A DNA stretch of 64,000 nt from Microbispora sp. NBC_01189 (GTDB taxonomy: Bacteria > Actinomycetota > Actinomycetes > Streptosporangiales > Streptosporangiaceae). The DNA is taken from contig NZ_CP108581.1 in the NCBI RefSeq assembly GCF_036010665.1, positions 5,699,501 to 5,763,500 on the forward strand. The letters are read 5' to 3'. Shown here one piece after another: positions 59,900 through 60,564 of the stretch. The notes beneath the pieces are model-generated. The model had not been told where the DNA came from. It searched no databases and saw only the letters and a program-made list of their open reading frames with translations. Position 1 is the first letter of the stretch. Each line of letters starts with the position of its first letter. Made by a program: the position numbers and the translations under genes.

Positions 59900-59933
59900 T
59901 AGGTTAGGCTCACCTTAGTAAGGCTTACCTAAC
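59900..59933. promoter_or_regulatory. Overlapping IdeR/DmdR-type iron boxes
   Basis: 59900-59918 reads TAGGTTAGGCTCACCTTAG, a near match to the actinobacterial iron-box consensus TTAGGTTAGGCTCACCTAA. A second, inverted copy overlaps it (59915-59933, TTAGTAAGGCTTACCTAAC). They lie between the divergent DUF2470 and S4 genes, 17 bp from each start, so the Fe2+-bound repressor should silence both. Confidence 0.85.
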
Positions 59934-59949
59934 TTGAAAAGAGGGTGTC

Positions 59950-60564
59950 ATGCGTTACACGGGACCGAAGGTGCGGCTGTCGCGACGGGCGGGCGTTCCG
60001 CTCACCCGGAAGGCGGTGAAGTACTTCGAGGCCCGGCCCTACCCGCCCGGCGAGCACGGCCGCGCGACCAACCGCCGCACCACCGGCGACTACGGCATGC
60101 GGCTGCTGGAGAAGCAGAAGCTCCGGTGGTACTTCGACGTGTCCGAACGTCAGCTCCGCCGCTACTGGGACCTCGCCGTCCGCCGTCCCGGCCGGTCCGG
60201 CGAGGAGCTGGTGGCACTCCTGGAGACCCGGCTCGCCTCCCTCGTCCTGCGGGCCGGCCTGGCGCCGTCCATCTACGCCGCCCGGCAGTACGTGAACCAC
60301 GGGCACATCGCGGTCGACGGCCGCAAGGTGGACATCCCCAGCTATCAGGTCAAGCCGGGCCAGTCGGTGGCCGTACGGGACCGGTCCGTCAGGATGCAGC
60401 CGTTCGTCGCCGCCGCCGAGGGCACGTACGCCGACGAACGGACCGCCCCCTACCTGGACGTCGACCATCGCGGGCTGCGCTTCACCCTGCTGCGGCGCCC
60501 CGCGCGCGAGGAGATCGTGGTCCCGGTGGACGAACAGCTCGTGGTCGAGCACTACTCCCGCTGA
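59950..60564 (+). CDS. Alternative ribosomal protein S4, cysteine-free
   Basis: A 204-residue S4 protein. The S4 RNA-binding domain is intact (RLASLVLRAGLAPSIYAARQYVNHGHI, in two pieces). The N-terminal domain, which in the usual actinobacterial S4 has a four-Cys metal site, contains no cysteine at all here. It should replace the standard S4 in the 30S subunit when metal is scarce, as known for Zur-controlled paralogues of other ribosomal proteins. Unusually the upstream site looks like an iron box, not a Zur box. GAAAAGAGGG precedes ATG 59950. Confidence 0.88.
   Translation: MRYTGPKVRLSRRAGVPLTRKAVKYFEARPYPPGEHGRATNRRTTGDYGMRLLEKQKLRWYFDVSERQLRRYWDLAVRRPGRSGEELVALLETRLASLVLRAGLAPSIYAARQYVNHGHIAVDGRKVDIPSYQVKPGQSVAVRDRSVRMQPFVAAAEGTYADERTAPYLDVDHRGLRFTLLRRPAREEIVVPVDEQLVVEHYSR

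Follow-up and report, generated by a model that had tools for sequence, protein, structure and literature searches.

Putative iron control of a cysteine-free ribosomal protein S4 paralogue in Microbispora and other actinobacteria

The S4 locus and its iron boxes

We analysed a stretch of 64,000 nucleotides (the window) from the chromosome of Microbispora sp. NBC_01189, a single contig of 7.37 Mb, and examined a ribosomal protein S4 gene and the region that it shares with a divergent DUF2470 gene (Table 1). The initial annotation had described an S4 gene that lacks the N-terminal four-cysteine metal site, and the 204-aa translation bears this out, as it contains no cysteine at all. The gene lies at 5.76 Mb in the genome. 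A Cys-containing rpsD elsewhere in the genome had been named as a point to check, and we found the genome's one other S4 gene in the alpha operon at 3.95 Mb, directly after rpsK. Its product carries the motif C-x2-C-x13-C-x4-C near the N terminus (CKLCRREKTKLFLKGKKCESAKC). The host genome therefore holds both a Cys-free paralogue and a Cys-containing copy, and the idea of a lone S4 gene, at odds with any swap of two forms, is ruled out. With S4 domains, no four-cysteine site and a position outside the alpha operon, the paralogue corresponds to the C-(IV) type of S4. In comparisons with each of six same-genus relatives, third-position differences in the gene predominated, as under purifying selection.

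Table 1. Genes and regulatory elements at the Cys-free S4 locus (window positions)
Feature	Positions	Strand	Details
Divergent DUF2470 (HugZ-like) gene, shares the iron boxes	59163-59882	-	PF10615 2.5e-8; probable start ATG 59882
Shared intergenic region	59883-59949	.	67 bp; both boxes and two SD sequences
Iron box 1, IdeR/DmdR-type 19-mer	59899-59917	+	3 mismatches; GTAGGTTAGGCTCACCTTA
Iron box 2, overlaps box 1, weaker	59914-59932	+	5 mismatches; CTTAGTAAGGCTTACCTAA
Cys-free ribosomal protein S4 paralogue	59950-60564	+	204 aa; Ribosomal_S4 and S4 domains; cysteines = 0

Two overlapping sites in the intergenic region fit the 19-bp pattern that we take to be the IdeR/DmdR consensus and used for scoring. 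They have 3 and 5 mismatches, and the second ends 17 bp before the S4 ATG at 59950, as had been described for this locus. The chance expectation for box 1 within the window was 0.00. A search of the whole 7.37-Mb genome at up to 3 mismatches gave 9 strand hits at 5 places, and the reversed control pattern gave 0. One of the other places separates a FecCD gene from a Peripla_BP_2 gene, a second follows the end of that Peripla_BP_2 gene by about 50 bp, a third lies upstream of a Suc_Fer-like gene, and the fourth separates NUDIX and ATP-grasp genes. Since the pattern occurs at only five genomic places, the Cys-free S4 gene belongs to a small set of iron-boxed loci.

Five matches to the DtxR profile were found in the genome, one of them strong (L321, Fe_dep_repress 9.6e-20). 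This protein, closest to M. tuberculosis IdeR (2e-79), is the predicted IdeR-like cognate repressor of the host. For zinc, the genome was scanned with a pattern that we presume to be the Zur consensus. At up to 3 mismatches, this pattern matched nowhere at the S4 locus; Zur control of the Cys-free S4 gene was rejected on this ground, and the assignment of the sites as IdeR-type and not Zur-type was upheld. The best Zur-like site in the genome (L183, G000:C1:3673734, 1 mismatch) precedes, as judged by eye, a gene for a zinc-type ABC binding protein, so the genome probably has a zinc response distinct from the iron boxes. A scan of the intergenic region, covering E. coli-type promoters only, found no sigma-70 match. 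As box 2 lies so close to the S4 start, an S4 promoter between the two genes must overlap the boxes.

The likely start of the divergent gene is preceded by AAGGAG, and this start sets the length of the intergenic stretch. The gene has a remote PDB match to the heme-binding protein MSMEG_6519 (5bnc, E 6.7e-5), a weak match that spans residues 143-232 only, and no Pfam match was found for an N-terminal PNPOx-like split barrel. This HugZ-like neighbour had been put forward as strengthening the iron link. Its DUF2470 domain was confirmed, but DUF2470 genes are iron-boxed elsewhere too, so the neighbour both supports the link and competes with S4 for ownership of the box.

Elsewhere in the window, a 633-aa ORF at 57199-59100 (minus strand) has a C-terminal cellulose-binding CBM_2 domain (2.1e-29) and no other Pfam domain at 0.001. 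Downstream of S4, the ORFs at 60639-60857 (minus strand, 72 aa) and 60891-62039 (plus strand, 382 aa) have no Pfam match at 0.001.

The iron box across actinobacteria

We searched 150 genomes of the order, and the Cys-free S4 proteins fell into three types. Type A (the window's own copy and those with 79-98% identity) and type C (53-57% identity) occur with a second S4, and type B (65-71% identity) is the sole S4. From the order list, the loci of 55/55 type A, 17/17 type C and 18/60 type B genes were read. The survey was widened to 296 genomes class-wide, named genomes and one more order, and reaches Streptomyces, Micromonospora, Actinoplanes, Dactylosporangium, Blastococcus, Geodermatophilus, Actinocorallia, Actinomadura and others.

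An iron box was found before the Cys-free S4 gene in all 111 actinobacterial two-copy genomes examined. In the two-copy table, a box with at most 5 mismatches lies within 160 bp upstream in 109 of 109 loci, and 106 of them have at most 4 mismatches. G464 and G555, which belong to a distant order and have 1 and 0 mismatches, bring the 109 to 111. Control windows at the same loci gave 0/1009 sites at up to 6 mismatches, and Markov-resampled upstream sequences gave 3/2180 at 5 mismatches and none lower. No box was found upstream of the Cys-containing S4, either for 24 copies with a readable motif (best 7-10 mismatches) or for a set of 18 copies (best 9-10 mismatches).

A second site (at most 6 mismatches), offset from the first by 12-24 bp, is present in 47/55 type A and 13/17 type C loci and in 0/18 type B loci. 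The mean column identity among type A loci is 0.87 in the boxes, 0.68 in the S4 leader, 0.69 from the boxes to the DUF2470 start and 0.57 at the DUF2470 5' end. The boxes of the window are imperfect, with 3-5 mismatches to the consensus, as might be expected if the likeness arose by chance or if another regulator bound there. This explanation is extremely improbable, given that the box is conserved in 111/111 two-copy genomes while its flanks diverge, that the controls are near zero, and that G555 has a perfect 19-mer. A chance site in particular was ruled out by the window expectation together with the control windows and resampled sequences.

These counts depend on how copies were assigned. 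For the 72 genomes of types A and C, two-copy status was taken from two S4 matches in the order search. Reading of the second S4 confirmed its four cysteines in 17 genomes of this set of 72, in 18 of 19 class genomes (G239 among the 18; G330 unconfirmed) and in G464; three of the four were readable in G555, where bases are ambiguous. In the 18 named two-copy genomes, the second copy was assigned from Pfam scores. Named genomes with two S4 genes and a box include Streptomyces varsoviensis, S. avicenniae and Micromonospora costi. Single-copy status came from the order search for type B, from a separate analysis for the class genomes (except G329, taken from the class-wide search) and from Pfam-score analysis for the named genomes. 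Copy number was determined for 45 of the 80 named loci, and the other 35, 13 of them boxed at up to 5 mismatches, are in no count.

Genomes left out despite at least two S4 matches were G001 and G136 (order search) and G257, G263 and G414 (class-wide search). L002 and L007 repeat the window locus and were removed, and the Cys-free S4 loci within the alpha operon (L134-L137, no box) were excluded from the table. G582 (box with 1 mismatch) was excluded from the counts, since only a single S4 appears in its draft. The box of L272 lies at -157 from the chosen start codon, which may be wrong.

Sharing of the box between S4 and DUF2470

A profile of the divergent gene located it beside nearly every box, so that DUF2470 could be the real target. 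With adjacency judged within a 1.5-3 kb flank, DUF2470 is adjacent in 127/132 box-bearing loci and in 106/111 two-copy loci. It could be argued that the boxes serve the divergent heme gene alone and that S4 is a neighbour, not meaningfully controlled by iron. Consistent with this, DUF2470 homologues of the same type located away from S4 have a box near the presumed start in 6/7 cases (L176-L179, L181 and L182 with 2-5 mismatches; L175 is the exception). The DUF2470 protein Rv3839 of M. tuberculosis is under IdeR control (PMC13258150), and the HugZ-like SCO0799 of S. coelicolor is in the predicted DmdR1 regulon (PMC12161575).

Genomes in which the Cys-free S4 is the sole S4 point the same way. 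A box was found in 21/62 of them, and DUF2470 is adjacent in all 21 (as a remnant only in L090). Eleven of the boxed single-copy loci are type B, with a single box that adjoins the DUF2470 SD at a distance of about 60 bp from S4, and the other 10 (Streptomyces and family f15) are arranged like the two-copy loci. The view that box presence tracks copy number perfectly was dropped in light of these 21 genomes.

The sole S4 stands behind a good box (1-3 mismatches) at L118, L119, L125, L127, L213, L219, L221, L222, L223 and L226; boxed single-copy examples include Streptomyces lavendulae and G161 (single contig, 1 mismatch). In G408, G282, G161 and G215, the alpha operon runs from rpsK to rpoA without rpsD, indicating that the Cys-containing copy is truly absent there. 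Since iron cannot shut off an S4 gene that is both essential and the only one, the box at such loci would act weakly, would act on DUF2470 only, or would be bypassed by a second promoter. It is possible that these genomes lost the Cys-containing copy recently and have leaky repression, or that they use a second promoter. At L229, titled Microtetraspora glauca NRRL B-3735, S4 and its upstream region are nearly those of Streptomyces, and the record may be mislabelled.

We compared loci with and without the divergent gene. Where DUF2470 is adjacent, the box is present in 106/106 two-copy and 21/21 single-copy loci. Without it, the box is present in 5/5 two-copy loci but in 0/41 single-copy loci (Fisher p 7e-7, kinship ignored); at up to 4 mismatches, the numbers are 4/5 versus 0/41 (p 3e-5, kinship ignored). 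The five loci (L116, L266, L276, L293 and L294) come from three lineages. Moreover, G150 has a boxed S4 and no PF10615 match anywhere in its genome, and in the window the S4 start follows box 2 by just 17 bp, too little to hold a box-free intergenic S4 promoter. These observations argue against boxes that serve DUF2470 alone, and we consider that explanation unlikely.

Other divergent genes can stand beside the S4 box, namely a small gene in G150 and G582 and a DUF3052 gene in G555, so the boxes there could be shared too. The small gene (L291 in G150, L292 in G582) replaces DUF2470 in this distant order, has no Pfam match and, as judged by eye, shares WPNDEPDAVG between the two genomes; it may be another iron-responsive gene. 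At L294 of G555, the perfect 19-bp iron box lies between the Cys-free S4 gene and the divergent DUF3052 gene (PF11253, 1.7e-30).

The two genes were also compared for joint presence. In 4/4 same-genus genomes without Cys-free S4, DUF2470 is absent as well. Among 16 tested genomes of the order without Cys-free S4, 12 have no DUF2470, and G024, G095, G114 and G145 have another type. When the S4 tree is restricted to its well-supported branches, a difference in copy number is left in only 4 independent pairs; the box differs in the expected direction in 2.1 of them on average and never in the opposite one, numbers too few for significance.

Taken together, DUF2470 seems to account for many of the boxes, and S4 seems to retain one on its own account as long as the genome has a Cys-containing S4. 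Read most simply, these distributions mean that a locus keeps the box if at least one of the two genes requires it, and S4 would require it only alongside a Cys-containing S4. DUF2470 is a second, real owner of the putative operator.

A proposed iron-sparing exchange of S4

In Thermus thermophilus, an Fe4S4 cluster on the uS4 zinc finger was reported and confirmed by long-wavelength diffraction (Rozov et al. 2019, PMC6555806), and a 2024 paper names this protein as the one bacterial case in which a cluster was shown (PMC11791143). The initial annotation had mentioned such a cluster in bacterial S4, and the statement holds for this species. The C-x2-C-x13-C-x4-C motif of the main Microbispora S4 has the ligand spacing of T. 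thermophilus S4, and a cluster on the same four cysteines gives a reason for iron control of S4. By analogy, the actinobacterial Cys-containing S4 may carry a [4Fe-4S] cluster; the literature examined contained no metal analysis for S4 of any actinobacterium.

We also considered that the swap is iron-controlled but that the Cys-containing S4 holds zinc, with iron shortage acting as a proxy for another need, such as oxidative stress or altered decoding fidelity by the alternative S4. Earlier structures assigned the S4 metal site to zinc (PMC3087516). Changes in rpsD alter both fidelity and oxidative-stress resistance (PMC12186496). Two observations speak against a zinc-holding S4: in T. thermophilus, these four cysteines bind an Fe4S4 cluster (PMC6555806), and the S4 locus lacks a Zur-like site. 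In addition, several other actinobacterial Cys-free ribosomal proteins are under Zur (PMC3087516), and the same might be expected of a zinc-driven S4. We regard this explanation as quite improbable.

The reading that we prefer is that the boxes are IdeR/DmdR operators and that they govern an iron-sparing S4 swap under IdeR; on the sequence comparisons presented here, this is probable. The interpretation first given to this locus, an iron-controlled Cys-free S4, is well supported by comparison. When iron is sufficient, IdeR-Fe(II) would cover the intergenic region and silence both the Cys-free S4 gene and the DUF2470 gene with its presumed role in heme handling. Ribosomes would then use the Cys-containing S4 of the alpha operon with its predicted [4Fe-4S] cluster, as in T. 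thermophilus. When iron is short, IdeR would depart, and Cys-free S4 would be made and enter new 30S subunits, with an expected saving of about four iron atoms per ribosome.

S4 is an early-binding ribosome assembly protein. Since it binds early, the swap would keep ribosome assembly independent of the Fe-S supply. The Cys-free paralogue would thus relieve assembly of its iron-sulfur demand just when IdeR signals shortage. Many soil actinobacteria carry such a second S4 behind an apparent iron-shortage switch, suggesting that they can build Fe-S-free ribosomes when iron runs out. The fuller proposal, in which many actinobacteria have ribosomes with a [4Fe-4S] S4 and an IdeR-run switch to cluster-free ribosomes, paired with heme turnover, appears about equally likely to hold or to fail.

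S4 influences decoding accuracy and is a primary assembly protein. If the proposed exchange is true, it would link the IdeR iron response to the make-up of the ribosome, and the Fe4S4 cluster of T. thermophilus S4 would be a physiological cofactor and no longer a structural curiosity. Exchange of ribosomal proteins in response to a metal is already known, with zinc and Zur; the new element here would be iron and IdeR in their place.

Among the titles and opening abstracts listed in searches of the open-licence PMC literature, none described iron control of a separate S4 gene. The nearest case is a prediction from C. diphtheriae, in which DtxR would control the alpha operon as a whole (PMC524172). 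As a precedent for a separate S4 paralogue, rpsD of C. diphtheriae was rejected, being part of the long run infA-rpsM-rpsK-rpsD-rpoA (PMC524172).

Among the closest known systems are the S4 proteins described by Chen, Roberts and Luthey-Schulten (2009, PMC3087516), who distinguished Cys-containing and Cys-free forms. Many bacteria have the Cys-free S4 only (PMC3087516), a point against the iron-sparing reading. Their C-(IV) paralogues belong to the same group as the Microbispora protein and lie outside the alpha operon, alongside a Cys-containing S4. That study searched for Zur sites, reported none near S4 in 26 multi-S4 genomes and left the regulation open as seemingly different, and the word iron is absent from its text (PMC3087516). 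Iron control would offer an answer to the question, left open by Chen et al. 2009, of which regulator acts on actinobacterial Cys-free S4 paralogues.

The Fe-S ribosomes described so far (T. thermophilus uS4, PMC6555806; the human mitoribosome, PMC11791143) are related to this system through the four-Cys pattern of T. thermophilus, common to the main S4, and the portions of these two papers used here describe no regulation linked to the S4 cluster. The IdeR/DmdR1 regulon, with its siderophore, heme and iron storage genes, has the same operator and repressor family and includes DUF2470/HugZ-like members; the term "ribosomal protein" is absent from the main text of the paper on the S. coelicolor DmdR1 regulon (PMC12161575).

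A parallel in regulatory logic is the group of Zur-controlled Cys-free paralogues, which includes, among others, S14, L28, L31, L32 and L33 in Streptomyces, S14, S18, L28 and L33 in mycobacteria, and S14 and L31 in Bacillus (PMC3087516). There, a Cys-free paralogue under a metal repressor substitutes for a protein with four cysteines during shortage of that metal, as the Cys-free S4 would. Whereas those paralogues involve Zur and a zinc ion, the Cys-free S4 has an IdeR/DmdR box and would respond to iron, with a proposed Fe-S cluster in the protein that it replaces.
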